Assembly (NCBI GenBank): GCA_030524745.1
Contig: JAUNGC010000030.1
Span: forward strand, 1-47,477
Direction: 5' to 3'
DNA: 47,477 nucleotides
Origin: Eubacteriales bacterium
GTDB lineage: Bacteria > Bacillota > Clostridia > Lachnospirales > Lachnospiraceae
The notes under the pieces were generated by a model, which saw only the letters and a list, made by a program, of their open reading frames with translations, ran no database searches and had not been told where the DNA came from. Shown here piece after piece: positions 30,506-47,477 of the stretch (its first letter is position 1; every line of letters begins with the position of its first letter). Both the position numbers and the translations under genes were made by a program.

Positions 30506-30540
30506 CCGCCGGCGCAAGGTGTCTTTCCTCACGCCGGCGG
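30506..30540. terminator. Bidirectional intrinsic terminator between the XRE and HprK-like genes
   Basis: CCGCCGGCG (30506-30514) pairs with CGCCGGCGG (30532-30540), nine GC-rich pairs. On the minus strand it is followed by CTTTTTATTGTTTT, and on the plus strand by TTCTATTTCTTTC. The stop codon of the HprK-like gene (30529-30531) lies in the loop side next to the stem. It can end both converging transcripts. Confidence 0.85.
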
Positions 30541-31389
30541 TTCTATTTCTTTCTTTAAAATTTCCACTGAATTTCGGTCCGGCCGGCAATACAGCATGTA
30601 CACAGGGACCTCTTCAACCAGCCTTTGAATGATTGAAACATGACGCTCCAGGAATTCCCGGTCCCAGTTCATCACATAGCATTCCCTGTAGATACAGGAG
30701 AAACTCTCTTTTTTGCTCAATCTCCGCAGCCGGTTTTCTTCCGCCTGCCGCAACACCACAATTGCAGACAAGGGCGTCGATTCATTCACATAAATTCCGC
30801 TGGAACCTGCATAGGGCAATCCGTAGCCAAACCACCCCTGCTTCTTTTTCCGAATGCCGCATCTGTCTCCGTTCAGGATTTCCGCGTTTTCAAATGTCTT
30901 CCACAGGGCCGCCTGCGTCGATTTTCCAACGCCGGACGGGCCGCTGAACGCAATCCCCTTTCCGTTCCGGCAAATCAGGGAAGAATGAAGCATAACGGCG
31001 TCCCACCGGTTCGCAATCCGGTCCAGCGGAAGCAGTTCGGTGAAAGCCTTTCCCGACTTTACATATTCCATATAGGTTTCCGCTATTTCTACCGTCCAGA
31101 AATCGTCTGATTTCTCCGCCAGCACCGCTTTGGGACGCAATCCGGATTTCCCTTTGCGAAGCAGTACTCTGACCCAGCGCCCGCTTGCGGGCTCCTGCAA
31201 TTCTTCCGTCCAGTTCTGCCTTCCGGCGCTTTTCATGCCCCGAAAATCCGTCCGGATTCCTTCCAGCAGTTTCACCCGCACATCCGGAACGCCGTCTCCC
31301 AGAAAGGGAGATAAATTACCGTTGTCTTTCCATTCAAAATCTGCCTCCACCGACAGATAATGCTCCAGTATTTGATATATTTTCTTCAT
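30529..31389 (-). CDS. HPr kinase-like (HprK-related) P-loop kinase
   Basis: A 286-residue protein. The C-terminal half has LHSSLI at 134-139, the P-loop GPSGVGKST at 150-158 and LNGDRCGI with an acidic residue at about 175, the order seen in HPr-kinase/PEPCK-fold enzymes. Only the HprK-like catalytic core is recognisable; the N-terminal 120 residues are unassigned. Relatives occur in lasso-peptide and other modified-peptide clusters, where some phosphorylate the peptide. Here it directly follows an 85-residue cysteine-rich peptide gene, so that peptide or a surface protein is a candidate substrate (inference). The ATG at 31389 has only a weak GAGAG site. The stop overlaps the terminator region. 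Confidence 0.82.
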   Translation of the reverse strand: MKKIYQILEHYLSVEADFEWKDNGNLSPFLGDGVPDVRVKLLEGIRTDFRGMKSAGRQNWTEELQEPASGRWVRVLLRKGKSGLRPKAVLAEKSDDFWTVEIAETYMEYVKSGKAFTELLPLDRIANRWDAVMLHSSLICRNGKGIAFSGPSGVGKSTQAALWKTFENAEILNGDRCGIRKKKQGWFGYGLPYAGSSGIYVNESTPLSAIVVLRQAEENRLRRLSKKESFSCIYRECYVMNWDREFLERHVSIIQRLVEEVPVYMLYCRPDRNSVEILKKEIEPPA

Positions 31390-31400
31390 CTCTCATAGTG

Positions 31401-31438
31401 ACAGGGCTGCATTGCCGTCCGCCGGCATGCAGCCCTGT
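31401..31438 (-). other. Strong hairpin without a U-tract between the small peptide gene and the kinase gene
   Basis: ACAGGGCTGCA (31401-31411) pairs perfectly with TGCAGCCCTGT (31428-31438), and an inner TGCC pairs with GGCA, giving about 15 bp. On the transcribed minus strand CACTATGAG follows, so it is not a classical terminator there. A T-run follows only on the plus strand. It lies in the 57-nt gap after the peptide gene and could stabilise the peptide mRNA or limit downstream expression. Confidence 0.75.
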
Positions 31439-31446
31439 TTTATTTT

Positions 31447-31704
31447 TTAGTTGCTGAAAATCACAACATTGCCGCTCGGCGTGTTATAGCAAATGCCCTC
31501 ATACTCCGAATCATTATACTCTTCCTCTGAGACAGTCCACTCACAGATATACTCACTATGAAACGTTCCGAAAGAGTCATTCGCTTTACAAGTATACCCA
31601 TTAGAAAGAGTGGGTACAATGTCGCCGGTACAATTAGACGCAATATTATTGGCAAGCACAAAATTCTCCACACAAACCTCAGGCTTTTGATATGGCTTTT
31701 TCAT
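31447..31704 (-). CDS. 85-residue cysteine-containing small peptide, candidate precursor or secreted peptide
   Basis: It starts at ATG 31704, with GGAGG 10 nt upstream and 22 nt after the giant surface-protein gene. The protein begins MKKPYQKPEVCVENFVLA, then NNIASNC, and has five cysteines spread over a Gly/Ser/Asn/Glu-rich body with many aromatic residues (EYICEW, EGICYN). It has no membrane segment and no standard signal peptide. The KPxxxxExFxLAxxIAxxC start resembles numerous small unannotated clostridial proteins (recollection, not searched). With an HprK-like kinase next and a PqqD, a peptidase and a radical SAM enzyme upstream, it is the best candidate for a modified peptide. Function unknown. 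Confidence 0.75.
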   Translation of the reverse strand: MKKPYQKPEVCVENFVLANNIASNCTGDIVPTLSNGYTCKANDSFGTFHSEYICEWTVSEEEYNDSEYEGICYNTPSGNVVIFSN

Positions 31705-31726
31705 TTTCGTTCTTCCTCCCTGTTAT

Positions 31727-34700
31727 CTAAAATCTGAATAGATTTCCGATTCTTCCTATAAGGCCGCCCAAAAACGACTTGATTTTCCCAAGTATTGTCA
31801 CATTCTCCGAATCATTTTTTTCCGGCGTCTGTGAAGTCTCTGTGCTGTCTTTTTCCGCCGGAGGACTGATCTCTTGTCCTCCGTTCCCGTCAGGCGCTTC
31901 CGTCAACTCTACCTCCTGAGACGGCTCTCCGATTTCAGCTTGCTCCTGACCGGAATTTACTTCCGTTTCTTCTCCGGTTTGTTCTGCCGCTGTTGTCTCC
32001 GTTTCTTCTCCAGTCTGTTCTGCCGCTGTTGTCTCTACCTCTTCCGCCGTCTCCTCTGTCTTTGGCGATACGTCCGCATCCGCCGCATCATCTGACGGCG
32101 CGCTCCGCAGCATCATGCTGTTGAGCATCCGGAACGCTACTGCGGCAGTCTGCTCATCCACCGTATATTCGCTCGCCGCCGCGCCGGTCTGTCCAAAACT
32201 CTGCTTCAGTTTTGTCAGCGCCGCAAAATTATTGGCATCCGATTCCGCCATTCCCCAATTCGAGATCGTGACGGTCAGAACCGCTCCGTCTGCCGCTTCA
32301 GGCAATGCGATTCCATAATACATATCTGACGTGGAATTCAGCGTGATTTCCGTCGTCCGGTAATTTGTCTGATTTTGCTTTTCCGCAACGCTGACCGTCA
32401 GTCTGGCCGCATTTGTACCGGTCCCACCGGAATTTTCTGTCGCCTTTGCGCCAATCTGGAGATTCATCCCGGTCTGATAAGCTACGTCAAAGGCGATCGA
32501 CGTAAACGTACCGGATCCGTTGCTCCGCAAATAAACCTCATGTTTCGGCCCGTATTCTTCATAGGCCGCAACTTCGGATACGACCTGTTCCCCCGGATTC
32601 TGGGGATCAAACTGCTGCTCCACACTCTGGCTGTCTATATATACTGCGCCGTACATTGCTTCGCCGGTACACTGATCCAGCAGAATATCCCTGATTTCTG
32701 TATAGTCGGCGTTCGCTTCTCCGTTCTTCGCATACTCTCTTTCCGTTTCCGCAGAATGTCCGGCAGGATTATAAACTCTGATTCCGTCCAGATAAAAGAG
32801 CGTTCGCTTCTTACTGTTCTCATCTTCTTTTGTACTACCCACAAGAATTTCCACCCGATACTCGCCGTACGTAAATTTGGAAAGATTCTTCCCGCTGAAA
32901 CTCACAACCGGCACCTGATACAGATCTCCCATCTTATAAAGCATGTCCACATCCTGCATCTTAATCAGCTTCCAGGTTCCGTTCTGATTCTGATACAGGT
33001 TAAAACGGATCAGTCCTGTTTCCGTATTGGTACGGCTGTAAATATCGATGCCGTCTCCTTTGAACTGGAAATACATCTTCGCCACGCCGTTTGTGGAATC
33101 CGCCATCCAGGCTGTCTTGTTGGAAAAGTCCGTCTTATTGTCGTAATGAGGATCGTATCCGTAAGCGTAATCTCCCTCTGTCGCCATTCCCGCCTGTTCG
33201 TCGATATCGCCTGCAAATCCGTCGGCCGCCGTCACGTTTTCGCCCGGCGCATAGAAGCCGTTCTCATCATAGGAACCGCCTGCCGGAGTCGTCACCAATT
33301 CCCAGTTTCCGCTGTAAATAATGCCCGTATCGGAAATCAGGTCGCTCTTTGCATTGACTGCAGTATCCACCTTTCTGCTGTCAGAGAAATTCTCTTCATA
33401 GTAAATATTGGAAGCCGGCATCATCGTCACGGTTTTTTCCAGCGTTTCCGGCTCCTGACCAGACGTTACGATATTTCCTTCCGAATCCGTTTCATAAGGC
33501 TCTACGCCGATTTTAAACGCATCCGGTCCGCTCATAAACCGCTGCAGGGTATATTCAAAATATTTGATGCCGTCTCTGGCTCCAAGCGCAGCCGATCCGA
33601 ATATTCCCTGTGCAACGGGCGTTTCCTCCAGTTTTTTCCATGCGCCGTCTACGTTCAGTTTCAAATAGGTATTCTGAAGTTCCGCTTCGGAAAAAATCTT
33701 ACTCTCCTCATAACGCACCGTCTTGCCGTAATCGATGACGAAAATTTTATTTTCCACGTTCAATGTACGAACCGTCGTCGACGCCGTGCCCGTAACCGTG
33801 CGGTTCTGGGAATCAGTTCCAAACGTATTGAGCCGGTTTGTAAAAGTCTGATTTTTATCCAGCGTGCGGCTGAATCCTTCCAACACCATCGATTGTCCGG
33901 ATGCGAGGCCGTTCAGAAGAATTTCCCGCAGAAGCGCCAGATGCTCCTCCTCGCTTCCCGCCATTCCGTACAGTTCCGCATATTTATCGGATATTTTCAC
34001 TTTATTGAAAGAGCCGTATCCGACCGTTCCTTCTTTGATCGCTTCGTCTTCTATAAACTCCGTTCCGTTCAGTTCCGGCCAGTAGGTGGCGTTTTCCTCA
34101 TCCCATTCAAACTTATAGTTCTGAATTGCAGGATACTCGTCGCCGTTTTCGCCATTCTCAAAAATGGTCACGGTCACGTCGCCCGCGCTGATCGGATTGG
34201 CGATGATTTCTCCAACCGCCTCCGCATGTCCAAGCGAAACCGTTCTTGCGTCGGCAACGCCGTCAAGCTTGCAGTTTGCCTTCGCTCCTTTCGGATACAT
34301 TCTGACGCCCAGGCTCTCGTCATTAAAGGAGAGGTTGAACATATGCTCCGTTCCGTCGTTGTTCAGGATGAATTCATAATTCACCGGCTCTCCCGCTTCC
34401 ACAACGGCGCCGTTTTGCTTTCTCTCGCCATCCTGATACGCCAGCTTCTGCGTCACCATGGAGGGCGCAGTCACTTCAATATTGGTTCTGATTTTAAAGT
34501 TAGATCCCGTACTTCTTCTTTCCGCATGGAAGAACGTGAAATCGTAGATACCGCCTTCCTGCAGTCCCAGACTGTCTTTTACCTCATTGAGGTTGACGCT
34601 GGCAGATTCCATCGCATGCGCACCGCCGTCGTCCAGGGCCAGTTTTCCGTTAATGAAGAGATATACGTCATCGTCTCCGCTGAAATCGAAGTACAGGTTT

Positions 34701-37700
34701 TTCCCTTCATTATAAACAAACTTCCCTTCTCCGACCGTTGTAAACAGGAAATTCATGCTGTTGCTGTATTCCTGACAGACATTTCCGTACCCCAGACCGT
34801 CGATCGGGTGAAAATATGCGTTTGCGGCAGGCGGCTCGCTCACGGGCGTTTCCGTATTTTTAACTACGCCTCCCTCAACTACCGTCTCATATGTGTTGGC
34901 ATTGTACTCATAAAAAGTATCCACGCCGTCAGAATATTCCTGCAGCCTGAGGGTATGCACTTCGGGCACCCGCACATTGTAATCTTTGGAAGCGTCGTCC
35001 GTGCCGTCGTCCGCCCAGATGTGGCTGAGCATATAATACGCGCCGGTATATGCGTCCGTTATTTCCTCAAACGTCACTTCGCCGTCGTCCGCCAGCGCCG
35101 CATTCACACTATCCATGCTTCCCAGCGCCGCATGCCCTGCTGTAAACACTTTATCCGTAATATTGGTATAGCATTCGGAGAAATGGTAGGGTTCATAGTT
35201 TCCGCTGTTGATGAGACCGGCCACATATGCAACGGTCCTGTCCTGATAAACGGGTTTTCCGTTTTCCAGGCTGTCCTTCAGCAGTCCGGTGGTTCTCTCC
35301 GTTCCAGCTCCGTTCGGATGATCCGCTCCTTCTACGCCGTACAGATTATAAGCGCGGGACGCCCCGCCCAGTTCAAATTCAAACAAAACGCCGTCGCCTT
35401 TGAAATCCCGGAAAGTAACGGGAAGCTGGATGGCATTTTCCGTTCTTTCCGCCGGCCTGACGTAATAAATTTTCAGGGTGAACATCGATCCCGGCAGCGG
35501 GTCGTTTGCATCGGAGTTCTGAATCAGCTGCAGTTCCGTCGCAACGGATGAAATCTCTTTTATCAGCTTGTCATTTTCATCATACAGGCGCATGGCCTTA
35601 TTCACCAGCGCCGTCCTTTCCGGGACGCCAGACGGCCAGGGATCCGTCAGCGTAATCTGATTGACCGCGTCCCCTTCGGTGATCGTCTGGCCGTTAAAGA
35701 CCGGCGGATAAATTTTATAAGACGCGTCCTTTCTGGTATAGGACGTTCCCAACAACGTTGCTTTTTCCCGCCCGTTGTTCTCTCTTTCCAGATAATAATA
35801 TTCAATATTCACTCTCTCTGCCGCCAGATAAATGAACTTAATGATGCCCGAATTATCCAGATCAGCCGCCGTTAATACGCCTTCTTCCAGATTCTGCGGG
35901 GCATTCTCCGCATCCACGCTGAACTCCCAGCCGCTTTCATTCGACATATAGTTACAGGCGTCGGTCCGGGAGGACGCATACGTCCATGGTCTCTGCATGC
36001 CGGGAGCGTTAACGGGGCTTATCAGCCTTCCGCTTCTGACATCCACCAATTCACACGCGACCGCATTCGTCAGCTTCTTATAATCGTCCGCAGTGCTCGC
36101 CATCTCCTCCGTCAGGCCAAATGTATTGACCGGATCATTCAGCAGGTTCGCTTCACCGGTTCTGTCAAGTTCAAGGACGCATTCTCCCACAAGCGTGATT
36201 CCGTCTTCTACCGTTCCGGGCGTTCCGCTTTCAGGTTCTTTGAAAATCTTATCGCTGGTAATGAGACCGTCCGCCGTTACCAGATAGAACTGCGCTTTTA
36301 CCTGGAAAGCGCTGCTCAGATAATAATATTTGATCTCTTCATCTTTTCCCGGGATAAGCTTGAGATTTTCCAGTTCATCGCCCGTATAAGAAACGCCGCC
36401 GACCGTCACCTTCACAAGCGTCAGCCCTTCCAATTGACTTCCGGAAGGCGCGCCCTGTTCATCCGCAATATTCTCCGGGGCAAACCAGCCGTCATACGCA
36501 ACCGGCACGCCGGTCTCTTCGGGCGCGCCGGTCCGCCCTACATATATAACCCTTTCATCTCCCGCTTCCAGATCTATGTTATCGGTAATATAAAATTCTG
36601 CCGACAACTCGGCCTGCGCGTCCACTTCTTTATAAAGACGTAAGCCGTAAGACGCAATATCCGGATTCCACACGCCGGCCGCTTTTGTAAACGCAGTTCC
36701 GTCAAAGTGGATGTACTCGCCGGAACCGCTGCTGCCTATCATAATTTTGCCGTTTTCGGCGTCCAGTTGCACGTTGTTCAGATTGCTGATTCCGCTCAGC
36801 GTATCCAGCGTATGCGCGTTTCCGGTAAAAATCCGTCTCGCATATGTCCATATCGCCTGTTCATTGGTAATGGCGGCGATCGTTCCGTCATACTCTGTCG
36901 CAATCGCTTCCGTTCCCATCTGATTGCTGTCATCAATCAGCACATAATCCTGGTCAGGGGCCGCAAACGCATATCTGCCATTCTCTTCCAACTGGCCGGA
37001 TGTGTCCAGCACCCACTTTTTTCCATCATGAATTTCCGTCTCAGAAATATACAGATTTGCCGTGGCAAGTACCGCTTTCCCTGTGGAATCCTTAACCGCA
37101 TCGCCCGTCGTCCGGTCCACAACCTCTGCCGAAAGCACGGCGCCGCCGTCCGTCTGGCCCGCCGTCAGCGTAATAGTTTCCGCATCATTTTCATCCTGTG
37201 AAATTTCTACCAGTTCCTCCGGATATACTGACCAGCGAATTACCGCATTGTCCGGAAGATTCGCCGTGACCGCCGCGATGCTTTTTGTCTCTCCATGCGC
37301 AAAAGAAAGACTTTTGGGATTCAGCGAAACGGACGGTTCTTCCACCGGTTCCACGACATGGACCGTAATATATTTCGTGGGGCTGCCTTCCAATGCGGTC
37401 CAGCCGCCGCCGTTTGAAATCTGGACCTGGATTCTGACGTCTCCCACAGGCGCATCCCCTGTCGCGGCGATCTGAATCGATGTTCCGCTTGGTATGACGA
37501 TTCCCCATTGCCCGTTAATTCTCACATAACCGTTATAGCTGTCGGCCGCGCCTCCTTCAAGCTGATAGAGCAGCCAGCCTCCGCTCTCATTTGTGACGCC
37601 GCTGACAATACAGCTTGCTCCCTGCTGCAGCCAGATTTCTTCCTCAGACAAAGTAAGTTCATACAGATCCGGCTCCTCTAAACCTTCCCCGTTTTCCGTC

Positions 37701-38113: not shown

Positions 38114-38177
38114 TCCTTTCCTCCCTTATTTCAGCTCACTATCCAAATTACACGAATCCATTTTGTAACTTATTACC

Positions 38178-38207
38178 ATTTTAAATTAATATTATTTCAT
38201 TTGTCAT
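38178..38207 (-). promoter_or_regulatory. Candidate promoter of the fibro-slime protein gene
   Basis: On the minus strand ATGACA (38202-38207), an 18-bp spacer and TAAAAT (38178-38183) lie between the upstream terminator and the start codon. The match is moderate. A promoter is expected here because the preceding unit ends in a very strong terminator. Confidence 0.35.
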
Positions 38208-38262
38208 TGGCTACTTTTGCGTTTTTTTGACTGATCCCAAAGGTGAAACGTTAAACCTTAAA

Positions 38263-38303
38263 AAAAGAGGTTTGCTTCCTGCGTGGAGAAGCAAACCTCT
38301 TTT
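38263..38303. terminator. Intrinsic terminator after the CotH-family gene
   Basis: AAAAGAGGTTTGCTTC pairs perfectly with GAAGCAAACCTCTTTT, 16 bp around a nine-base loop. It is followed by a run of six or seven T on the minus strand and TTTTC on the plus strand. It begins 8 nt after the CotH-family stop codon and ends that transcription unit. Confidence 0.92.
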
Positions 38304-38311
38304 CTTTTCCT

Positions 38312-41300
38312 TTAATAGGCGATTCCAGTGCCAAAATACTGCGCATATTCATCCGGAACGATGTTCCAATAGGCGTTATTTCCACCCGGATTGATCCAAT
38401 GTTCCCAATAATCATCTCCCAAAGGCGTATAATACCTGCCATCCTTCTGAATGATCGTTCCAAGATCGTTATGATAATATTCGTTTGCGCCTTCCCTGAT
38501 CTGTCCGGAAAGATCCGTCGTCACTTTCGACCAGCCCGCCCCGGGAAACGCCCCGGTATTCTGATAAGCGGCAGCCCAGGGATTATGATAAACATAATAG
38601 CATTCGTCTCCCGGATAATATACGACGGCTCCCACCGGATATTCTGCCGTCTCTTTGCTGTAGATGGGCGCATAGACGGTTTTTACCGCGCCGTCCCCTT
38701 CAATTACAATTTCCACTGTCGTATCGCACTGCGGATTATAATTGCTCACCGCCTTCACCGTAACGACGCCCGCTTTTACCGGCTTCAGCACATTTCCTTC
38801 CAGAATTGCGCACTCTTCGCCCTTTATGACGGACCATTTCACCGTCTGGTCCGAAACCCTGGGACTGACCGCCGCTTCCAGAATCAGATCCTTTCCGACA
38901 GTCGTATATTGACTCCCCGTTGCTTTGACCGTAACGGCCGCCGGGTAAACGGTTACCGTTACGAATGCGGATTTCTTCGGATTATATTCGCTCACCGCCT
39001 CAATGACAACCGTCCCCGGTTTCTTCGCAATCAGCAGACCGTTTCCCAATATGCCCACCACTGCCGGATCAGAGCACGTCCATTTCACATTCTTATCCGG
39101 AACGTCGGCAGGTTCAAATTCCGTATACAGCACATAAGTGCTCATATCCGCCATTTGAATCGCATCCGGACGATTCAGAAAATGGAAATCATACTCCATT
39201 TTGTCCGGATCATCCGGCTCTTCCGGTTCCGCCGCATCCACCCTGTTTTTCCCGGCAAAATAAGGGCGGGCGGTTGCGCATCCGTCTTTTGTATCAATAA
39301 AAATATCGATATTGTTCTCGTCCGCCTGCACCAAGTCTTCCATTCCCTTGAGCATGTCTTTCGTGCTTCCGGCTTTTCCCTGCATATAGGCGCATTTTCC
39401 TTCGGGAATGGCAGTCCCGCCGATGACGGCCGTATTCGAGGCGTCAAATCCCTTCATTTCCACTTCTGATCCGTCCGCCGCTGCTGCAAAGAGCGGGCTG
39501 CCGTTTACAAAAACATAATATTCCGCGGCCCCGCCGATGATTTCGCTGCCGTCCTTTGTTTTCCATGTAAAGTCGGAAGCATTCGCGGCTTCCGCTTCCG
39601 TCATGGTAAACCGGTAGTTCAGTCTGGTCAGCGTTCCCGGACGGATGGTAGCCCAGCTTCCCTGTTCTTCCGCTGTCGCTGTCAGCGCTACATCTTCCCC
39701 GTTTCCGAAATATTTGCCCCGCGCAGGATCGGCCTCATATTCGATCCGGTCTGAGATTTCTTCCACGACGAGAATTCTCACGCTGCTTTCCAGTCCGTCC
39801 TTTGTCTTCGCCGTAATTGTCGCTGCGCCTTCCTTTATCGCGGTCACTTTTCCGGTCGCTTCATCAAATAAGACGGAATCGCCCTCCACAGACCACTCTG
39901 ACGGGCTTTCCCCTTCTGTCTGAATATAGGTTATTTCCTGCTTCAGCGGCACATCGGGATAATTGCTTGTTTCCGGACGCAGGGTCACTTTCAGGCAGCC
40001 TTCCCCAGGGCCGTCCTCCTGCGCCGGTGCAACCTCTTCCGGCAGATAAATGCCAAACTGTTTTTCTCCCGTTCCGCCCAATGCCGTTCCGGTATTACCG
40101 CTTTGATCCGCCTGAAAACTCACCACGAAACCATCTCCGCCGGCTTCCAGTTTTCCGTAATTCGTACCCGCAATCCGTACCTCTCTTGCGCTCTCTGAAA
40201 TCGTCAGTTGCCCGTCGTACAGGGTCACAGAGCCGTCCGTCCCCACATCCGCAATGTATACCTGAGTCTTTTCGCCCATTTCAAAAGGCGTGTCATTTCC
40301 CAAATACCACAACTGGCTGGTCACACCGACATAACGTCCGGACTGCTCCACAGTCAGAGACAAATCCGCCTTATTTCCGAGACCGCCGCCCGCTTCTTTG
40401 TCTTTCCACCACTCATATACGTTGGAAACCACCGTATAATTATCGTCCCAACTGTTTTTTTGCCGCTGGGGCTCCATTCTGATCGTTACAGGCTCCGCCA
40501 GATCCACGGCCGGGATTTCCTCCTGCATCTCTCCTCTGACAATCTCCTGCGTACCGCTCTTTTCCGTTCCTCCGTATCCGCCGTCCCAAATATCCTCCGG
40601 ATCATTTTTTATGCTTTCACCCGAAAAGGCTGCCGTCAATTCATCGTAAGACCGATATCCCCCGGACGACGAGGTATCCCATCTTGTCCATGTTCCGCTG
40701 TATTTTTTCTCGACTTCGTCCACATTCCAGACCGTATCCAGCCAGGCGATCCTGTCCTGAATAAACGCCTTGACATATGCGGCTTCCCCTTCAAAATCCA
40801 GCGTGCTCCGGCCCACGTCGAAGGTACCGGCCACGCGCGCCGTATAGTCGCCCCAGATTTCAAAATCAACGGAAGATAGCGCTTTTGCCGCTTCATAGCC
40901 TTCCTGGAAGGTGTCTTCGGCCCAAACAGGCAATATCGTCTCCCTGATCTGCTTCCACCTTTTGATTACTCTCTCTTCGAAATCCGTATTCTCAAATAAT
41001 TCCTTATAATATTTTGTCTCTCTCGTCAGATATCCCTGCGCGCCTGCGGTATCCCGGTATCCTTCGGCCTCCAGAATTCCATAGTTATTGCGGCCGTATG
41101 CGATGTCAAAGTCCCACACCGGACCGGCATACACCTTGCCGCCCTCTCTGAAATACAGATAAGAGGAAGAATAGCAGGCCTGATATCCGAAGCCAAAATC
41201 CGGATTCTTAGCCAGTTCATTCACAATGTAGGTATCCACCCAGCTATCCACATCAATAAACTGTTCATAATTGGTCCCGGATAAAATCGCCGCTTCCATT

Positions 41301-42139
41301 GCGTTGATTTCCTTCTCGATTTCCGCCAGTTCCGTCTCGCCCAGATCCTCCGGGTCAGGGTCTTTGGGAACAAAATATACGCCGCCTGCAGTTGTAAAAG
41401 CCCCCGGCTCCGCATTCTCATAGGCGCGGCTGTCGGACTCCACAATGATCTCCGTCACAACGCCGTCCCCGTTTTTATCCCCGTCATTTTCTCCCGCCGG
41501 GATCTCCGTTCTGTATTCATTCAGACCAACCTTCTCCGTCAGCAGATAAATACCTTCAAATTCCCCGTCGATGCAGAGCGCAACCATCTCGCAGTCAGGC
41601 GTTCCCATTCCCAACGCGCATGCCAGTTGATACGCCATATAATTGCGCAAAAATGTAGTATCCACCCAGTTTGCAATCAAACACCAGGATTTTGCCTTCC
41701 CCATTCCCAAAAGATCCTGCTTCTTGTCGAACTTCAGATTATACGGCTTTTTACCGGTGGGCATCGTCCAGCTTGAATTGCCGCGTCCTTTCGCCGTCAG
41801 CGGATAAACTGCTTTTCCCGAAGTTTCATCCACTGTCGCCTCCAGACTGATATCCTCGCCCTTTCCGTTTGTATTGGCCAGTTCAAACCGGCTGATATTC
41901 TGTTTGTCCTTGACCGTCTTCAGCGCGTCGTATTCCTCAGGGTCCGCAAGCGTCAGATTCATCACGGGTATATTCGACATCTCCACAAGCTGCTCAAAGG
42001 TATATGTCGTCAGAGGTCCGTTTCCTGCCGCTTTTACCTCCGTCACCCCGATTTTGCCCCGGGAAATTCCCGCCGCAATGATGACCACGGCCAGCAGCAG
42101 CGATAAGTTTCTTTTCCATTTCCTTTTCATTTTCCTCAT
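38312..42139 (-). CDS. Secreted CotH-kinase family protein with Ig-like domains and possible carbohydrate-binding tail
   Basis: About 1275 residues. A signal anchor or peptide (LSLLLAVVIIAAGI, 12-25) precedes a CotH domain with RGNSSW at 119-124, KPYNLKFDKK at 131-140 and GPVWDFD at 339-345, motifs of the spore-coat kinase fold. An EF-hand-like loop, GDKNGDGVVTE, is inserted near 220-230. The middle has two or three Big_2-type Ig repeats. The C-terminal 90 residues, with AVVYYPGDECYYVYHNPW and aromatic clusters, resemble a CBM5/12-like module. I chose ATG 42139, with AAGGGG 7 nt upstream; 42160 is a longer in-frame alternative. It forms its own unit between two terminators. Whether it phosphorylates surface proteins is inference. 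Confidence 0.85.
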   Translation of the reverse strand: MRKMKRKWKRNLSLLLAVVIIAAGISRGKIGVTEVKAAGNGPLTTYTFEQLVEMSNIPVMNLTLADPEEYDALKTVKDKQNISRFELANTNGKGEDISLEATVDETSGKAVYPLTAKGRGNSSWTMPTGKKPYNLKFDKKQDLLGMGKAKSWCLIANWVDTTFLRNYMAYQLACALGMGTPDCEMVALCIDGEFEGIYLLTEKVGLNEYRTEIPAGENDGDKNGDGVVTEIIVESDSRAYENAEPGAFTTAGGVYFVPKDPDPEDLGETELAEIEKEINAMEAAILSGTNYEQFIDVDSWVDTYIVNELAKNPDFGFGYQACYSSSYLYFREGGKVYAGPVWDFDIAYGRNNYGILEAEGYRDTAGAQGYLTRETKYYKELFENTDFEERVIKRWKQIRETILPVWAEDTFQEGYEAAKALSSVDFEIWGDYTARVAGTFDVGRSTLDFEGEAAYVKAFIQDRIAWLDTVWNVDEVEKKYSGTWTRWDTSSSGGYRSYDELTAAFSGESIKNDPEDIWDGGYGGTEKSGTQEIVRGEMQEEIPAVDLAEPVTIRMEPQRQKNSWDDNYTVVSNVYEWWKDKEAGGGLGNKADLSLTVEQSGRYVGVTSQLWYLGNDTPFEMGEKTQVYIADVGTDGSVTLYDGQLTISESAREVRIAGTNYGKLEAGGDGFVVSFQADQSGNTGTALGGTGEKQFGIYLPEEVAPAQEDGPGEGCLKVTLRPETSNYPDVPLKQEITYIQTEGESPSEWSVEGDSVLFDEATGKVTAIKEGAATITAKTKDGLESSVRILVVEEISDRIEYEADPARGKYFGNGEDVALTATAEEQGSWATIRPGTLTRLNYRFTMTEAEAANASDFTWKTKDGSEIIGGAAEYYVFVNGSPLFAAAADGSEVEMKGFDASNTAVIGGTAIPEGKCAYMQGKAGSTKDMLKGMEDLVQADENNIDIFIDTKDGCATARPYFAGKNRVDAAEPEEPDDPDKMEYDFHFLNRPDAIQMADMSTYVLYTEFEPADVPDKNVKWTCSDPAVVGILGNGLLIAKKPGTVVIEAVSEYNPKKSAFVTVTVYPAAVTVKATGSQYTTVGKDLILEAAVSPRVSDQTVKWSVIKGEECAILEGNVLKPVKAGVVTVKAVSNYNPQCDTTVEIVIEGDGAVKTVYAPIYSKETAEYPVGAVVYYPGDECYYVYHNPWAAAYQNTGAFPGAGWSKVTTDLSGQIREGANEYYHNDLGTIIQKDGRYYTPLGDDYWEHWINPGGNNAYWNIVPDEYAQYFGTGIAY

Positions 42140-42202
42140 AGCATTACCCCTTCTCGGCATTTTTAATAAAACAGCGTCCCATTTAGCCGTTCTTTTGGGT
42201 AA

Positions 42203-42231
42203 ATTTTAATATTTTCTGTAAACCTTTACAA
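42203..42231 (-). promoter_or_regulatory. Candidate promoter of the CotH-family gene
   Basis: On the minus strand TTGTAA (42226-42231), a 17-bp spacer and TAAAAT (42203-42208) sit between a strong terminator and the start codon. A perfect dyad, TCAGAC-AA-GTCTGA (42257-42270), lies about 26 bp upstream of the -35 and could be a regulator site. Confidence 0.45.
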
Positions 42232-42306
42232 CAAGAAAAACGAAATTTTGACCAAATCAGACAAGTCTGACATTTTTATTCAAAAAACAGCAAGAGAATG
42301 CAAAAA

Positions 42307-42357
42307 ATTCCGTTTTCAGTTTTGGGGCACATTTTTCCCAAAAATTGAAAACGGAAT
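42307..42357 (-). terminator. Intrinsic terminator after the second single-pass protein gene
   Basis: On the minus strand ATTCCGTTTTCA pairs perfectly with TGAAAACGGAAT (12 bp), and an inner TTTTGGG-type arm pairs with CCCAAAA. The hairpin is followed directly by TTTTTTGC. It closes the radical SAM to single-pass protein unit 46 nt after the last stop codon. Confidence 0.9.
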
Positions 42358-42402
42358 CCTTTCTCACCGCATAATCTTATAATTTTTTTCAACGAATATG
42401 GA

Positions 42403-43341
42403 TTATTCTGCGATTTCCACCATAACGACCTGGCTGATGCCTTCCGAAAAATGTCCGGCCTCCACCGCCGCCGTTTCTCCCGGGCCAATCTCTTCCAGCG
42501 CCGTCCGGAACGTCACGCCTCCCAGAAAAGCCCCGCCCTGCTGAACATATTTGTAATACACATATACCTTCTGATAAGACTGCTGCGTCAGATTCTCCAG
42601 CGTCAGCATGCCGTCGCTTCCGGTAACCTTAAATTTATCGGTCTGAAGCTGTTCATTCTCCGCCATACCATACGCGTCATCTTCCAGAACATATACGTCT
42701 GACTGCGAAAAAGTCCTTCTGTTCTTCTCCTGTACCAGAGCCGTTGTCCCCGCCGGCAGGTTGCTGACCACAAACTCGGCCGTCTCTGAATCGTTTACCC
42801 TGAAAGTAAAGGTTGCGGCCAAAAGCATTTCATCGGAATTATTTCTCACCAATGCGGATGCAACGTCCACGACGGCGTCATTACTGCCGTCTTCCACAAA
42901 AATTCCGCTGTAATTTCCGACAGATATGATTTCAATATCATCTCTCGTAAGCCGGGCCGGTTTTTCCGTCTGTTTCACATACCCCTGGATCTCTTCTTCC
43001 CGGAAAGTCTCCGCAGACGGCTCGGGCAAAGTTTGCTGCTCTACCTTTACCTGCGTCCCCTCCATCTCTTTTAAGAACTGCTCCGCCTCCTGGGCAGAAA
43101 CGGTCTCCTGCATCATCACGCCCGCTACGCTGCCGTCAGACATCCGCATTTCTTCCGGAACACTCCCTTCCGGAACGCTTTCTTCTCCGGAAACTCCGGC
43201 AATCTCGTTCAGCTTCCCGCCTCCGGAAAGAGCCCAAAACACACATACCGCCAGAAGCACCACTGCCGCGCCCGCTATGCCGCAGATCAGAATTTTTCCT
43301 CTGTCCGCCTTTTTCTTTTTCCTGCCCGCCTTCCTCTTCAT
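42403..43341 (-). CDS. Single-pass extracytoplasmic protein, paralogue of 45106-46068
   Basis: A 312-residue protein. A very basic cytoplasmic start (MKRKAGRKKKKADRGK) leads into one transmembrane helix at about 17-38, then an acidic linker and a folded outer domain. That domain has VGNYSGIFVEDGS, DVASALVRNNS, FTFRVNDSETAEFVVSNLPAGTTALVQE, VYVYYKYVQQGGAF and a terminal VVMVEIAE. It is clearly related to the protein at 45106-46068. I chose ATG 43341, with GGAGG 4 nt upstream; a longer frame from 43404 has no good site. I do not recognise the family. The beta-rich outer domain suggests a partner or anchor for surface polymers or proteins. Confidence 0.8.
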   Translation of the reverse strand: MKRKAGRKKKKADRGKILICGIAGAAVVLLAVCVFWALSGGGKLNEIAGVSGEESVPEGSVPEEMRMSDGSVAGVMMQETVSAQEAEQFLKEMEGTQVKVEQQTLPEPSAETFREEEIQGYVKQTEKPARLTRDDIEIISVGNYSGIFVEDGSNDAVVDVASALVRNNSDEMLLAATFTFRVNDSETAEFVVSNLPAGTTALVQEKNRRTFSQSDVYVLEDDAYGMAENEQLQTDKFKVTGSDGMLTLENLTQQSYQKVYVYYKYVQQGGAFLGGVTFRTALEEIGPGETAAVEAGHFSEGISQVVMVEIAE

Positions 43342-43450
43342 AGTCCCTCCCGCCGTTTCCGGCATTTTTGATACAGCTAAGCCGCTGACCAAAGATATTT
43401 TCATCTTTCCGCCAACGGCTCATCCGCTTCCTTTTGTATCGCAATTACAT

Positions 43451-44188
43451 TCAGCCGGCATTCTGCTGCTGTACAACAACATTTCCGGATTCCGCGGCAT
43501 AGATTTCTTCACTTTCCTGAATCACTGCCGCTTCAGCGGAAACATAATTCTCTTCTTTATGGGAGCCTTCCACAATTCCCTCCTGAAAAAGCACCGGCAG
43601 AAACGTCCCAAAAAAGCACTTCACGTCCATTATAAAACCGATATGCTCTATGTAATACTGATCCAGCTTTGCCTTCTCTACAATCTCCAATTCATCCCGG
43701 CCATTAATCTGCGCCCATCCGGTCAGTCCGGGCCGAATATCGTTCGCACCGCATTTATCCCGCTCCGCAATCAGGTCGTACTGATTATACAGCGCCGGTC
43801 TCGGCGCGCACAGGGAAAGCTGCCCGAACAAAATATTGAAAAACTGAGGCAACTCATCCAGAGAAGTTTTCCGCAGCACTCTTCCAACCCGCGTAATATA
43901 CTGCTCGGGATGATCCAGCAGATGCGTCGGCACATCATGCGGCGTGCTGACCTTCATCGTTCTGAATTTGTACAGTTTAAAAATCTTCTTATGCGCGCCG
44001 ATTCTGTTCTGCGAAAAAATGACCGGTCCCGGATCATCAATCACAATCGCCAGCGCGATAATCAGATATATGGGGCATAACACCACAATCGCCATCAACG
44101 CCAAAACAAAATCCAAAATATATTTGATTACCAGATAGATTCTTTGTGCTCTGGTCAGTTTCAGATTACTTTCTCTTCCTGCATCCAT
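43451..44188 (-). CDS. Initiating undecaprenyl-phosphate sugar-1-phosphate transferase
   Basis: A 245-residue bacterial sugar transferase of the short PglC/EpsL-like form. A membrane helix at about 20-45 (LDFVLALMAIVVLCPIYLIIALAIVI spread over the re-entrant segment) precedes KLYKFRTMKV. Then come TSLDELPQFFNILFG, APRPAL and RPGLTGWAQINGRDEL, the catalytic signature. The enzyme moves a sugar-1-phosphate onto undecaprenyl phosphate, the first step of repeat-unit synthesis. It is the only such enzyme in the window, so it may start the polymer made by the operon at 1-23027. It lies in a different unit, possibly with its own promoter. The ATG at 44188 has AGGGG 6 nt upstream. A Glu/Ala/Gln-rich tail of about 30 residues is unusual. 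Confidence 0.92.
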   Translation of the reverse strand: MDAGRESNLKLTRAQRIYLVIKYILDFVLALMAIVVLCPIYLIIALAIVIDDPGPVIFSQNRIGAHKKIFKLYKFRTMKVSTPHDVPTHLLDHPEQYITRVGRVLRKTSLDELPQFFNILFGQLSLCAPRPALYNQYDLIAERDKCGANDIRPGLTGWAQINGRDELEIVEKAKLDQYYIEHIGFIMDVKCFFGTFLPVLFQEGIVEGSHKEENYVSAEAAVIQESEEIYAAESGNVVVQQQNAG

Positions 44189-44231
44189 TTTTTTCCCCTC
44201 TGAACAGAAATTTCATCCTTCGCTTTCTTTC

Positions 44232-44237
44232 ATTATA
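44232..44237 (-). promoter_or_regulatory. Candidate -10 element upstream of the sugar transferase gene
   Basis: A perfect TATAAT on the minus strand lies in the 151-nt gap before the sugar transferase, with AT-rich sequence but no good -35 at the right distance. No terminator separates it from the PqqD-like gene, so it could be an internal promoter that raises expression of the sugar transferase and the following gene. Confidence 0.35.
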
Positions 44238-44339
44238 CTCATTCTCTATACAAAAAAGAAACAGAAAATTGTGGCAATTTATGTTCTCTTTTGCGCAGTT
44301 GCTGCCGTTCATCCTGCATATCGCAGCACGCCGGAGAAC

Positions 44340-44603
44340 TCAATTCAAAATCCCGTTTGTTTTCAGTTTCTCCAGGAACTCCTCGATATCGCCTTTGACG
44401 GTTTCCCGATCCACCTCGTACTCCTCCATGGTCTTACGAATCAGATCTTCCACCGTCACTTCGGACTGCAGCAGATTCCAGAGAAACATTCCTACCTCAT
44501 TCACCGTAATCAGCCCGTTAAAGTCCAGGGCCGTATTCCCGGTGGGCACAATAATGTACTCGCCCGCTATTTCTCTCAATACAAAACTCTTTTCAATCTT
44601 CAT
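44340..44603 (-). CDS. PqqD-family peptide-binding protein (RRE-type)
   Basis: An 87-residue protein with the PqqD pattern: SFVLREIAGEYIIVP, then LITVNEVGMFLWNLLQ, then TVEDLIRKTMEEYEVD and a C-terminal helix ending in KLKTNGIL. PqqD-like domains bind the leader part of peptides and present them to radical SAM or other modifying enzymes. The ATG has AAGGA 4 nt upstream and begins 1 nt after the peptidase gene. Together with the radical SAM/SPASM gene at 46055-47230 it strongly suggests peptide or protein modification by this operon. Confidence 0.88.
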   Translation of the reverse strand: MKIEKSFVLREIAGEYIIVPTGNTALDFNGLITVNEVGMFLWNLLQSEVTVEDLIRKTMEEYEVDRETVKGDIEEFLEKLKTNGILN

Positions 44604-44604
44604 G

Positions 44605-45096
44605 CTATCCTTCCAGTCCTTTTTTCCGGTTTTGCAAGCCGCCTGTCAGTTTTTTCAGAGTATCATAACATCTGCAGGCCAGTCGCCTGGCCGGAATCAT
44701 CCGCAGCCACACATGTTCAAAAAACTCCCACCAGAAATCTCCCGGTTTCAGCCATGTTCCCTTTCGGCAAACCGCCTTCACTTTTCCAAAAATCTGATTT
44801 CTGCCAACCGGCCCTTCCGCCTGCGTCTGCGCATCCCCGATAAAGAAGTATTGCCCTTCCTCTGAAACCCGGCATATACGGTGTAAAACAAACTGTCCGC
44901 TTTTCCTCTGGAAAATTGCGATGTCGCCTTTGTGCATGCCGTCATCAACCGGCCCCAGTAAGACCTTGTCCCGCGTATGAATAAAGAAAGGCGACATGCT
45001 GTTGCCGCTGACCGTCAGCGAAACCTCTTTCCCCTCTTCCAGCAGTTCTCTCACGACGGGAATATATACCTCATTTGCAACAACTCTGCTGTTCAT
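44605..45096 (-). CDS. S24/S26-family peptidase, signal-peptidase-like
   Basis: A 163-residue protein. VSGNSMSPFF at 29-38 carries the nucleophile Ser33 and VLHRI at 70-74 a His, the Ser/His arrangement of SipW/ER-type signal peptidases. GDIAIFQR and FFIGDAQTQAEGPV follow as in S26 proteins. There is no N-terminal membrane anchor, unlike ordinary signal peptidases, so it may act in the cytoplasm or at the inner face on a leader peptide. It overlaps none of its neighbours but is tightly packed (1 nt to pqqD, 9 nt from the upstream gene). The link with PqqD suggests leader removal (inference). Confidence 0.85.
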   Translation of the reverse strand: MNSRVVANEVYIPVVRELLEEGKEVSLTVSGNSMSPFFIHTRDKVLLGPVDDGMHKGDIAIFQRKSGQFVLHRICRVSEEGQYFFIGDAQTQAEGPVGRNQIFGKVKAVCRKGTWLKPGDFWWEFFEHVWLRMIPARRLACRCYDTLKKLTGGLQNRKKGLEG

Positions 45097-45105
45097 CTTT
45101 TTCCC

Positions 45106-46068
45106 TTATTCCGCAATCTGTACGTCCACGACCAGCGTGCCGTCGGGATTCATATGTCCCGCCACCGCCTCTGCCGAGCCGTTCGCCGGCACATTTTCCA
45201 CAGGCGTCCGGTATGTAATACCGCCCTTATAGGCGCCGCCCATCTGTACATATTTATAATATACATATACTCTGGAATAAGCCTGATCCGTCTTATTAAT
45301 CACCCGGACCTTTCCGTTCTCCATCTCGATGTCGAATTTATCGCTTTCCAGAGACGGGGAATCAATATAGGCCGTCGCAGTATTCCCATAGGAATAATCG
45401 TCGTCCTCTTTATATTCTCTCCTGTTCTGTTCCATCACCAGCGCAGAAGTTCCTGCCGGAAGATTCGTTACTTTAAAGGTGGCAGTTTCCGTATCATTTA
45501 CTTGGAACGTAACCTGACCAACCTGAAGCATCTGGGCAGAGTTGTTCGTAATCAGAATTGACGCGACGTCCGCAACCGGCTCGTCGCTACCGTCTTCCAG
45601 AAAATTTCCCGTATAGCTGCCGACAGCGTTGACGGATAAGTTCGGATCGGACAAAACAGTTCCCGCCTGACCGCTGCTTTCTGCGGATTCCGGATTTGAT
45701 TCTTCTCCGCCCGCCTGTGTGGTAAATCCCTGAATCTTCTGAATATCCAGCGTATCTTTACCGGGTTCCACATAACCTGCGGAAGTTTTTACCTGTATCT
45801 CAATGTCTTCCGGATTTTCCCCTTCTGCCAGTTCCCGCACCGCGCTGTCATCCATGATTTCCCCGCTGGTATTGACAGACCCGCCTGTTTTAGCGCCGCC
45901 CGGGCTGTCAGATCCGCCGTCCTGTGTGGCGGCGGTTTGCACCGCGCTTTTCCCTGTTCTGACCAACACCACCGCAATCACGGCAATCACAATTACCGCC
46001 GCCAGCGCCGCAACTGCTATGATCGCCTTATCGTTCCGTTTCCGTTTTTTCTTTTTATATTTTGCCAT
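45106..46068 (-). CDS. Single-pass extracytoplasmic protein, paralogue of 42403-43341
   Basis: A 320-residue protein. A basic start (MAKYKKKKRKRNDK) is followed by one membrane helix at about 15-38, a Gly/Ser/Glu-rich linker to about residue 145, and an outer domain. The outer domain has VGSYTGNFLEDGS, DVASILITNNS, VTFQVNDTETATFKVTNLPAGTSALVME, VYVYYKYVQMGGAY and a terminal VVDVQIAE. It matches the paralogue along its whole outer domain with many identical residues, while the linkers differ. The ATG at 46068 has AGGA 6 nt upstream and overlaps the radical SAM gene by 14 nt. The family is not one I recognise. Confidence 0.82.
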   Translation of the reverse strand: MAKYKKKKRKRNDKAIIAVAALAAVIVIAVIAVVLVRTGKSAVQTAATQDGGSDSPGGAKTGGSVNTSGEIMDDSAVRELAEGENPEDIEIQVKTSAGYVEPGKDTLDIQKIQGFTTQAGGEESNPESAESSGQAGTVLSDPNLSVNAVGSYTGNFLEDGSDEPVADVASILITNNSAQMLQVGQVTFQVNDTETATFKVTNLPAGTSALVMEQNRREYKEDDDYSYGNTATAYIDSPSLESDKFDIEMENGKVRVINKTDQAYSRVYVYYKYVQMGGAYKGGITYRTPVENVPANGSAEAVAGHMNPDGTLVVDVQIAE

Positions 46069-47230
46069 TTTCTGTCCTTTCCATATCGCCGCATAAGCGC
46101 CCGGAGGCAGAATTCTGCCCGCACAATGCCAGATATGCGTCCGTCATATCGCACAGATACGCAGGTTTTCTGGTGGAATCCCCCTGTCCTTCTGCAATCG
46201 TCAGCGCACCGCAGACCATGCAGGCAAACCGCTTCTTACAGTTCGTGCACTCCGCCGGCAGCAGAATCTGCGCCGTCCGGTCGCATATATGATTCCAGGA
46301 CGGAACAAACCCGTCTTCAAAGGGACGCGCCACCGGATGATTCATCATACCGCAGGGAGTCATCCTGCCGTCCCAGGTAATCCAGAAGGAGGACCGTCCC
46401 GCCATACAGCCCATATGCTCGTCCGGCGTCCGGGAGCACTCTTCTCCGTCCTCTTCCGGCTTCACGCCCTGTTTCATTCTCTGCAAAAAGACCTCAAAGG
46501 CCTCCGGTTCCAGCCAGCATTTTTTAGAGTGAAACAACGCCGCTCCCGCTTCCCGGGCCGTGAACCTTGCGGTCTCATCCAACGCGCCTTCTTTCGCGCT
46601 GCGCACCGGCGGAAACATATACGAAGTGGACGTCACCGTCAGGCCTCGCCCTTTGGCAAACGCATAGATCTTTTCCATATCCGAAACATTATACGGGGTA
46701 AAGGTAGCGTTAATGTTCACATAAATCCCGGCCTCCAAAAGGAGATCTATCGCGCGCACGGCCTGGTCAAATCCCTGCGGATTCCGACACAGTCTTTCAT
46801 AAGTTTCATTACTGGCGCCATATAACGTAATATTCATTCTGGAAGGAGGATTCTCCTTCAGCCATGCAACCGTCTCCGGCGCAATCATCGTTCCGTTGGA
46901 ATTGATGGAAATGACGAACCCCATCCCACTCAATTCCGTATATATCTCTTTGAAATCCTTTCTCAGAAACGGTTCTCCGCCGGTAAGCAGCAAAAAAAGC
47001 ATCCCCTGCTCCCTGCAGATCCGGCCCATTGAAATCCACTCCTGCGCGGTATATTCCCTTCCTCTGGCACGCATCTCCTTTTCTGACATCCGGATATAGC
47101 ACATCCGGCAATTCATATTGCACCGCGGAGTCAGTTCAAAAGTACCGCTGACCGGCACCCTGTTTCTCGCTGCCTTCTGATACAGGAAGCGACGCAGTTG
47201 GGGCTGCATCGGTTTCTTCTCATTTTCCAT
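46055..47230 (-). CDS. Radical SAM/SPASM maturase
   Basis: A 391-residue enzyme. The radical SAM cluster motif C-x3-C-x2-C is at Cys37, 41 and 44 (CNMNCRMC), followed by LLTGGEPFLRKDF and INSNGTMI for S-adenosylmethionine binding. The C-terminal SPASM region has CMAGRSSFWITWDGRMTPC, then CTNCKKRFACMVC and a last YLC, enough ligands for two more [4Fe-4S] clusters. SPASM enzymes commonly modify peptides or protein side chains. The ATG at 47230 has GGAG 6 nt upstream; a TTG four codons earlier is less likely. It heads the operon with PqqD and the peptidase. Substrate unknown; the peptide at 31447-31704 is one candidate. Confidence 0.9.
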   Translation of the reverse strand: MENEKKPMQPQLRRFLYQKAARNRVPVSGTFELTPRCNMNCRMCYIRMSEKEMRARGREYTAQEWISMGRICREQGMLFLLLTGGEPFLRKDFKEIYTELSGMGFVISINSNGTMIAPETVAWLKENPPSRMNITLYGASNETYERLCRNPQGFDQAVRAIDLLLEAGIYVNINATFTPYNVSDMEKIYAFAKGRGLTVTSTSYMFPPVRSAKEGALDETARFTAREAGAALFHSKKCWLEPEAFEVFLQRMKQGVKPEEDGEECSRTPDEHMGCMAGRSSFWITWDGRMTPCGMMNHPVARPFEDGFVPSWNHICDRTAQILLPAECTNCKKRFACMVCGALTIAEGQGDSTRKPAYLCDMTDAYLALCGQNSASGRLCGDMERTENGKI

Positions 47231-47297
47231 TGAATTCTCCAAATGTTACGCCCTTCCACATGACCGGACGATAACCTGCACGCTTCAGAAATCGCAT
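47220..47297 (-). CDS. Possible 25-residue leader ORF overlapping the radical SAM start
   Basis: From an ATG at 47297, a 25-codon frame reads MRFLKRAGYRPVMWKGVTFG and ends at TGA 47220-47222, inside the first codons of the radical SAM gene in another frame. AAAAGG lies 10 nt upstream. It begins about 13 nt after the inferred transcription start. It could be a translationally coupled leader peptide, a tiny substrate or chance. No other evidence supports it. Confidence 0.3.
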   Translation of the reverse strand: MRFLKRAGYRPVMWKGVTFGEFNGK

Positions 47298-47374: not shown

Positions 47375-47423
47375 TTTATATTTTACGGCAATAAAGTATC
47401 CTTCTTTTTCCCCGCTATGCACA

Positions 47424-47470
47424 ACTGGCGGAGGCTGTTTCACCTCCGCCAGTCCTTTCTTTATTTTTTC
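47424..47470 (+). terminator. Intrinsic terminator oriented on the plus strand, no visible gene
   Basis: ACTGGCGGAGG (47424-47434) pairs perfectly with CCTCCGCCAGT (47443-47453) around eight bases. CCTTTCTTTATTTTTTC follows on the plus strand. On the minus strand no T-run follows. No plus-strand gene precedes it in the window. Confidence 0.75.
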
Positions 47471-47477
47471 CGTTCTC

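Follow-up and report, generated by a model that had tools for sequence, protein, structure and literature searches.

Does a run of peptide-modification genes lying among adhesin and polysaccharide genes form a single pathway, and would its product serve the cell surface or act as a bacteriocin? The question is raised by contig JAUNGC010000030.1 of a Lachnospiraceae genome (Eubacteriales bacterium, assembly GCA_030524745.1; 3.57 Mb, 63 contigs, 93% complete), which we analysed over its entire length of 47477 bp and refer to as the window (contig C53). A preliminary description, made from the window's sequence, had listed within about 17 kb of one strand a radical SAM/SPASM enzyme, a PqqD-like protein, an S24/S26 peptidase, two paralogous single-pass proteins, an initiating sugar transferase, a CotH kinase, a giant fibro-slime protein, a small cysteine-rich peptide and an HprK-like kinase. 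All of them were found, on the minus strand between positions 30529 and 47242. The clustering is real and more than chance. We read it, with a probability of roughly 0.6, as a pathway for a ribosomally synthesized and post-translationally modified peptide (RiPP) that resembles the pathways of linear polyphosphorylated peptides (LPP) and of paeninodin, has a radical SAM maturase among its enzymes and serves a cognate giant surface protein.

Genes that recur with the SPASM enzyme

The survey of these genes covered 397 genomes of the family, the window's own among them. Relatives of the SPASM enzyme (E<=1e-45) occur in 38 of them, and relatives of the first single-pass protein (SP1) in 13. The part of the giant protein that its relatives share, a conserved C-terminal module here called GCM, was matched in 18 genomes (E<=1e-8, alignment A3) and strongly (E<1e-40) in 15, every one of which is among the 38 SPASM genomes (hypergeometric 3e-17). 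All 13 genomes with a single-pass protein (SP) lie within the 38 and also within the 15 (a hypergeometric value of 1e-22 was also computed). The weak GCM matches in G176, G215 and G431 (E 1e-9 to 1e-10) have no SPASM match at E<=1e-45, and no other system gene was found in the stretch fetched around them. The 15 strong-GCM genomes were also compared with 15 control genomes, which we chose for having neither a SPASM match nor a strong GCM and of which two were previously known to carry the kinase. PqqD was found in 15/15 vs. 3/15, the kinase in 15/15 vs. 2/15, the S26 peptidase in 14/15 vs. 2/15 and a nucleotidyltransferase (NTP transferase) in 14/15 vs. 4/15. In the genome of the window, an NTP_transf_5 protein sits on contig C52; the window itself contains no profile match to an NTP transferase or to an MsbA-like exporter, the latter having been searched for only in the window.

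For a wider sample, 84,980 species genomes were searched with the SPASM alignment alone and the best 80 loci among the matches listed were kept. Their record titles name Lachnospiraceae, Oscillospiraceae, Christensenellaceae, Erysipelotrichaceae and other Clostridia, many from gut or rumen samples. Near the SPASM gene, the kinase was found in 73 of the 80 loci, PqqD in 63, a precursor peptide in 61, SP in 48 and GCM in 44, with kinase, precursor, PqqD and GCM all together in 34. The NTP transferase (23/80), the MsbA-like exporter (16/80) and the S26 peptidase (15/80) were also found. These counts depend on hidden Markov models (HMMs) built from 7 to 24 sequences apiece, most of them taken from loci of the family, and the leader HMM was extended using matches within the same 80 loci. 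At least five loci are training contigs, and excluding five leaves the kinase in 68/75, the precursor in 56/75, PqqD in 58/75, GCM in 40/75 and SP in 44/75. Some loci share one genome and many are clipped by contig ends, so absences have to be read with the counts as lower bounds. In L101, one of the closest loci, S26 peptidase, PqqD, GCM protein, precursor, kinase, SP and SPASM enzyme form a single same-strand run. The island clearly withstood the challenge that its genes might not co-occur in relatives: many Clostridia have SPASM enzyme, PqqD, kinase, precursor, SP and giant protein in company.

Two of the genes first listed as island members did not hold up. CotH relatives occur in none of the 80 loci at a blastp threshold of E<=1e-8, with one distant relative (22%) in L099; relatives of the sugar transferase occur in five, as well as in L094 and L097. 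The CotH protein is probably not a conserved part of the system, and the sugar transferase is probably context from a polysaccharide locus and not a core part. Nor is the supposed mixing with polysaccharide genes general, as any of seven polysaccharide markers lies near only 19 of the 80 loci. That surface and peptide genes came together by chance, in a polysaccharide locus that varies, might be suggested by the non-conserved CotH and sugar transferase genes and by the continuation of the window into a large polysaccharide cluster (874-23027). For the core this is contradicted, since its genes recur together in dozens of Clostridia and mostly without those markers; the explanation applies to CotH and the sugar transferase only, and as an account of the whole we regard it as highly improbable.

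Gene fusions were also seen. Kinase and PqqD are joined in one frame in L030 (9123-10295) and L032 (9540-10718), and S26 peptidase and NTP transferase in L087 (15793-17538); these fusions support a common pathway. The L030 and L032 stretches have no blastp match to the SPASM enzyme, and beside the fusions and ABC-like proteins they encode another small-peptide family with the leader end EGVYAASG.

Features of the island are collected in Table 1. The window takes up its contig entirely, so the operon with the radical SAM gene may start beyond the contig end. About 55 bases, including a hairpin, are common to window positions 47423-47477 and the start of contig C2 (L022), where a third kinase gene comes next; this suggests that the SPASM gene is preceded by an unassembled repeat, perhaps a further precursor gene. 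The same genome has the system a second time: this copy comprises a precursor, a kinase and an SP at the end of contig C36 (L021), and a 1706-aa GCM protein is encoded at the start of contig C38 (L212); the two contigs are probably adjacent.

Table 1. Features of the island in the window, in order of transcription; GCM and the hairpin are listed at their positions within that order.
Feature	Position	Strand	Basis
Radical SAM/SPASM-like peptide maturase, 395 aa, TTG start	46055..47242	-	PF04055 E 1e-25
SP1, single-pass protein with two-domain beta-sandwich ectodomain	45106..46068	-	predicted structure
S24/S26 (SipW/LppS-like) leader peptidase without membrane anchor	44605..45096	-	PF00717, 24.8 bits vs. 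cut-off 23.3
PqqD-like discrete RiPP recognition element (RRE)	44340..44603	-	PF05402 E 2e-18
Initiating sugar transferase (Bac_transf)	43451..44188	-	PF02397 E 3e-55
SP2, paralogue of SP1	42403..43404	-	37% identity over 314 aa
Secreted CotH-kinase protein with Big_2 domains	38312..42160	-	PF08757 E 6e-39
Giant secreted protein, 2128 aa	31727..38113	-	TIGR02148 83.8 bits (cut-off 45), PA14
GCM, conserved C-terminal module of the giant protein	32159..33481	-	two tandem CBM-like jelly rolls (predicted)
Precursor peptide, 85 aa, leader MKKPYQKPEVCVENFVLANNIAS, Cys-rich core, C-terminus CYNTPSGNVVIFSN	31447..31704	-	leader/C-terminal motif alignment
Strong hairpin between precursor and kinase genes	31390..31446	-	minimum free energy -31.6 kcal/mol over 60 nt
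HprK-like kinase	30529..31389	-	P-loop GPSGVGKS at 150-157

Elsewhere on the minus strand of the window, a long polysaccharide cluster (874-23027) was read from the sequence, with glycosyltransferases, acyltransferases, two ferredoxin-containing proteins and a likely pyruvyltransferase. Within it, a family-2 glycosyltransferase at 15612-16685 appears by eye to be split into two short open reading frames (16338-16685 and 15612-16316) and is possibly a broken gene. An overlapping pair at 23543-26503 and 26484-29576 resembles the RADAR anti-phage system according to PADLOC, which matched an RdrB-like adenosine-deaminase protein (E 7e-42) and, over a short stretch, an RdrA-like ATPase (E 1e-8).

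Pairing of the precursor peptide with a giant surface protein

The precursor gene of the window starts 22 bp past the giant gene, and a similar arrangement is common in relatives: a precursor lies at most 300 bp downstream of 32 of the 44 testable GCM genes, with a median gap of 14, and 11 of the other 12 have one elsewhere in the same locus. Two genomes (G066 and G211) contain several GCM genes with several paired precursors. Distances among GCM sequences follow those among precursors when SPASM distance is removed (partial Mantel r 0.40, P 5e-4, n=30), and precursor distances also follow those of the SPASM enzyme when GCM is removed (r 0.52); the first signal agrees with a specific GCM-precursor partnership.

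In the giant protein, the fibro-slime/PA14 domain (approximately residues 1121-1213) is followed by GCM, an E/T-rich linker and an amphipathic C-terminal tail. The window protein exceeds the cut-off of the fibro-slime family; its relatives share GCM, and only some of them match the fibro-slime region. None of 39 GCM members matched a Pfam family, there was no match to a carbohydrate-binding module (CBM) family, and comparison with solved sequences returned only a weak match to 3nqh (E 0.007). When the fold was tested by structure prediction, the module came out as a tandem pair of CBM-like jelly rolls. Surface anchors are frequent in GCM proteins, whose C-termini include ones with SLH or dockerin domains and ones with sortase-like or amphipathic tails. 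SP1 is modelled with one N-terminal helix (13-38) followed by its beta ectodomain; SP2 has no Pfam match over cut-off, FxLYD being sub-threshold (22.2 bits vs. 23).

The precursor of the window has cysteines at positions 11, 25, 39, 54 and 72, and the same genome holds a second family member that is 33% identical. Leader and C-terminal motif were aligned across 14 sequences, and a search that used only the leader recovered 67 precursors. A YxxP motif stands near the start in 64 of these, in a detection that itself favours YxxP, and WxxP in two. Serine is the last residue in 65/67 and lies within the last two in 67/67, compared with 575 of 5872 other small open reading frames that end in Ser. 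Split by the C-terminal motif, the precursors form two types of 56 and 11 members (57 and 10 under a looser rule). In type I, the C-terminal region contains a C[YFWE] motif, the median length is 84 aa and 39 of the 56 members have four core cysteines. Type II is longer, with a NEYVAAC-like leader end in several members. Type II loci (L089, L095, L096, L097, L099 and L171) contain SPASM enzyme and kinase and variously PqqD, S26 peptidase and exporter, often adjoined by CpsB/Wzz-like polysaccharide genes; GCM is present in the locus of one of the 11 type II precursors.

A strong hairpin (z<-3, from mononucleotide shuffles) follows the stop codon in 37 of 69 precursor genes, vs. 17 of 164 kinase or SPASM genes. 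Such a hairpin, possibly an attenuator or partial terminator, would allow more precursor than enzyme to be produced.

Predicted modification enzymes and the nearest known systems

The SPASM enzyme has CxxxCxxC at residues 41-48, and C279, C297, C332, C335, C341, C344 and C364 are invariant in 15 relatives. Its Pfam SPASM match is sub-threshold (14.8 bits vs. 21.5), and it scores far under the cut-offs of the 25 best of 69 matching NCBIfam models (top 96.9 bits vs. 500), a comparison aimed at named maturase systems such as sactipeptide, SynChlorMet and HPr-rel-A. The nearest solved sequences are SkfB, cytosylglucuronate decarboxylase, 5v1q (which we take to be SuiB), MoaA and PqqE. The possibility that the enzyme belongs to a clade with a known, unrelated substrate would have undermined the proposed pathway; these scores give no sign of it, and the nearest solved enzymes include peptide maturases. 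For PqqD of the window alone, LppB (9x8z) is the best match among solved structures (E 1.6e-5), and for the PqqD family profile it is second to the lasso-peptide RRE TbiB1. In the S26 peptidase, S33, H72 and D88 are invariant in 10 aligned sequences; the Ser33-His72 spacing of 39 residues equals that of S29-H68 in LppS, and we presume Asp88 to be the third catalytic residue.

The kinase of the window matches no Pfam family over cut-off and remains far under the cut-offs of the HprK-related NCBIfam models (ScmC 23.7 vs. 125; HprK_rel_A 18.5 vs. 200). Among 15 members of its family, the matches obtained were all weak (ScmC for 14, HPr(Ser) kinase for two, PF07475 for two). Conservation is high at H135 (78/78), K156 (77/78) and D175 (78/78).

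The claim that the island is undescribed requires a division. Its core of RRE, S26 peptidase and kinase was described in 2026 as part of the LPP system, lppA-K-B-S-D-N, whose description lists an RRE, an SpI-like peptidase, an HprK-like kinase, an NTP transferase and an exporter (Popov et al., 2026; PMC13381572). In the open-licence PMC literature, we found no description of an LPP-like core combined with a SPASM maturase and surface-protein pairing. Shared with LPP are the YxxP leader, the discrete PqqD/RRE protein, the S26/SipW-like peptidase and the HprK-like kinase, as well as adjacent RRE and S26 genes (44340-45096 in the window), an NTP_transf_5 protein in the genome, an MsbA-like exporter in some relatives, and a Bacillota host with the genes often near capsule genes; the kinase is likened to that of LPP by its motifs and weak HprK-related profiles. 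Several differences stand against these. The present system has a radical SAM maturase, and the term “radical SAM” is absent from the main text of PMC13381572. Of the LPP motif YxxPxVLxHQxIxFETxxS, the precursors share only the YxxP part, with HQxIxFET in 0 of 84 precursor entries (4 duplicates among them). Their cores are Cys-rich, mostly with four cysteines, and end in a conserved Ser, unlike LPP, where the phosphate sits on core Ser3 (PMC13381572). A giant GCM protein and an SP family are paired with the present genes. Finally, the window is without the NTP transferase and MsbA-like exporter matches that an LPP cluster would contain.

The paeninodin and pseudomycoidin lasso peptides (PadeK, ThcoK, PsmK, PsmN) provide the second likeness, an HprK-like kinase with a conserved C-terminal Ser. 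According to a review of lasso peptides, paeninodin-type kinases phosphorylate the C-terminal Ser, which is highly conserved in the precursors, and PsmN adds hexose to it, the involvement of a host glycosyltransferase being left open there (PMC9266682). Unlike paeninodin-type lasso peptides, the leaders here carry YxxP instead of WxxP in 64 of 67 cases, the B2 peptidase PF13471 exceeds its cut-off in 0 of 15 GCM genomes (with three sub-threshold matches), and a SPASM enzyme stands in place of a cyclase, none having been found among the ten island genes of the window that were scanned. The third likeness is to RiPPs with SPASM maturases (SkfB for a sactipeptide, SuiB for streptide, and PqqE), which share the radical SAM domain, an RRE partner and a leader peptide; the present enzyme differs in lying under the NCBIfam cut-offs, as above. 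To our knowledge, neither a kinase nor an S26 peptidase is part of the SkfB, SuiB or PqqE systems. The system is one of LPP-like processing, a paeninodin-like C-terminal Ser and a SPASM maturase, with its type I form paired with a surface protein.

A peptide at the cell surface or a secreted one

The genes and their pairing, conservation, calculated hairpins and predicted folds would fit the following route, in which leader binding, cleavage and phosphorylation are adopted by homology. The precursor would be made straight after the giant protein, with the hairpin keeping it abundant relative to the enzymes. The PqqD-like RRE would bind the YxxP leader, as LppB does, and the radical SAM/SPASM enzyme, by analogy, may then put cross-links into the Cys-rich core. 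To judge from its conservation and from the paeninodin kinases, the Ser at the C-terminal end would be phosphorylated by the HprK-like kinase. The S26 peptidase, if it acts like LppS, would cut past the I-A-x end of the leader, immediately before the first core Cys. The product would be exported, in relatives via the MsbA-like ABC exporter, and could meet the giant protein outside, where SP may be a membrane-side partner or receptor; this last step is the least certain.

Under our reading, the peptide probably belongs to a surface structure, as one of its components, its ligand or its tether. Joint inheritance with the giant protein suggests that the finished peptide is active on the cell surface alongside it, unlike an ordinary secreted antibiotic, and the leading interpretation is that it may decorate or anchor that protein. 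From co-inheritance and pairing one can argue for a functional link to the surface protein, not for a chemical one.

Several observations weigh against this reading. The chemistry of the pathway is deduced here from genes. A strong GCM is missing from 23 of the 38 SPASM genomes; G360, which has the closest SPASM relative among these (66%), has the enzyme adjoining a kinase on a 4.4 kb contig, and so the pathway can run without a giant protein. A SPASM relative of 58% identity (G019, L024) stands alone. The system is patchy, with a SPASM relative (E<=1e-30) in 0 of 12 other genomes of the genus. S26 peptidase and exporter often lie outside the locus, as their counts among the 80 loci indicate, and shared ancestry could contribute to the Mantel signal. 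The window's own precursor ends in SN instead of S. The reported His-Lys-Asp-Asp (HKDD) motif, in a register of our own assignment, keeps its His, Lys and last Asp, but 75 of 78 kinases have Gly where the first Asp would stand, and kinase activity is thus not assured.

The strongest competitor makes the peptide a bacteriocin or signal of the LPP or paeninodin kind that the cell secretes, and sees in the giant protein and SP its partners for immunity, reception or delivery, or no more than genes regulated together with a surface locus. The SPASM genomes that lack a strong GCM fit it, as does the near absence of GCM from type II loci, and the nearest solved SPASM enzyme, SkfB, matures a killing factor. 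The patchy distribution fits as well: PMC13381572 places LPP genes, the nearest described core, in capsule loci and likens their patchy distribution to that of genes of biological conflict. The same paper states the roles of paeninodin and LPP to be unknown and suggests one in biofilm or capsule (PMC13381572). Against a bacteriocin or signal, type I precursors are coupled to a surface protein that is large and variable, strong GCM in the family is confined to genomes with the SPASM enzyme, and the partner bears surface anchors. We judge such coupling, restriction and anchoring to be unusual for a bacteriocin locus. We consider a secreted peptide of this kind a minority possibility, less probable than the surface reading.

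It is a good deal less probable that the pathway modifies the giant protein itself, with the small peptide only a carrier or regulator of the enzymes. Although giant gene and enzymes are co-inherited, no YxxP or WxxP leader motif occurs in the first 40 residues of the giant protein of the window or of 33 complete relatives, the number of cysteines in these relatives ranges from 0 to 36, and the N-termini resemble signal peptides by eye. Leader, Cys core and Ser end are all found in the small open reading frame.

A more specific version of the surface-protein reading can be put forward tentatively. The mature RiPP would be a structural part of the surface, cross-linked, phosphorylated and sugar-linked at its C-terminal Ser, and bound or attached to the GCM jelly rolls, tethering the giant protein to envelope polysaccharide or to SP. 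The sugar link would in this case be made by the NTP transferase encoded in most GCM genomes. If this is true, these bacteria would possess a system for displaying surface proteins that is built around a RiPP and replaces sortase or S-layer anchoring. The analysis defines GCM as a domain family that Pfam lacks, together with a precursor family widespread in Clostridia, and the radical SAM branch paired with giant proteins offers a testable role for such peptides: action at the surface with a named protein partner.

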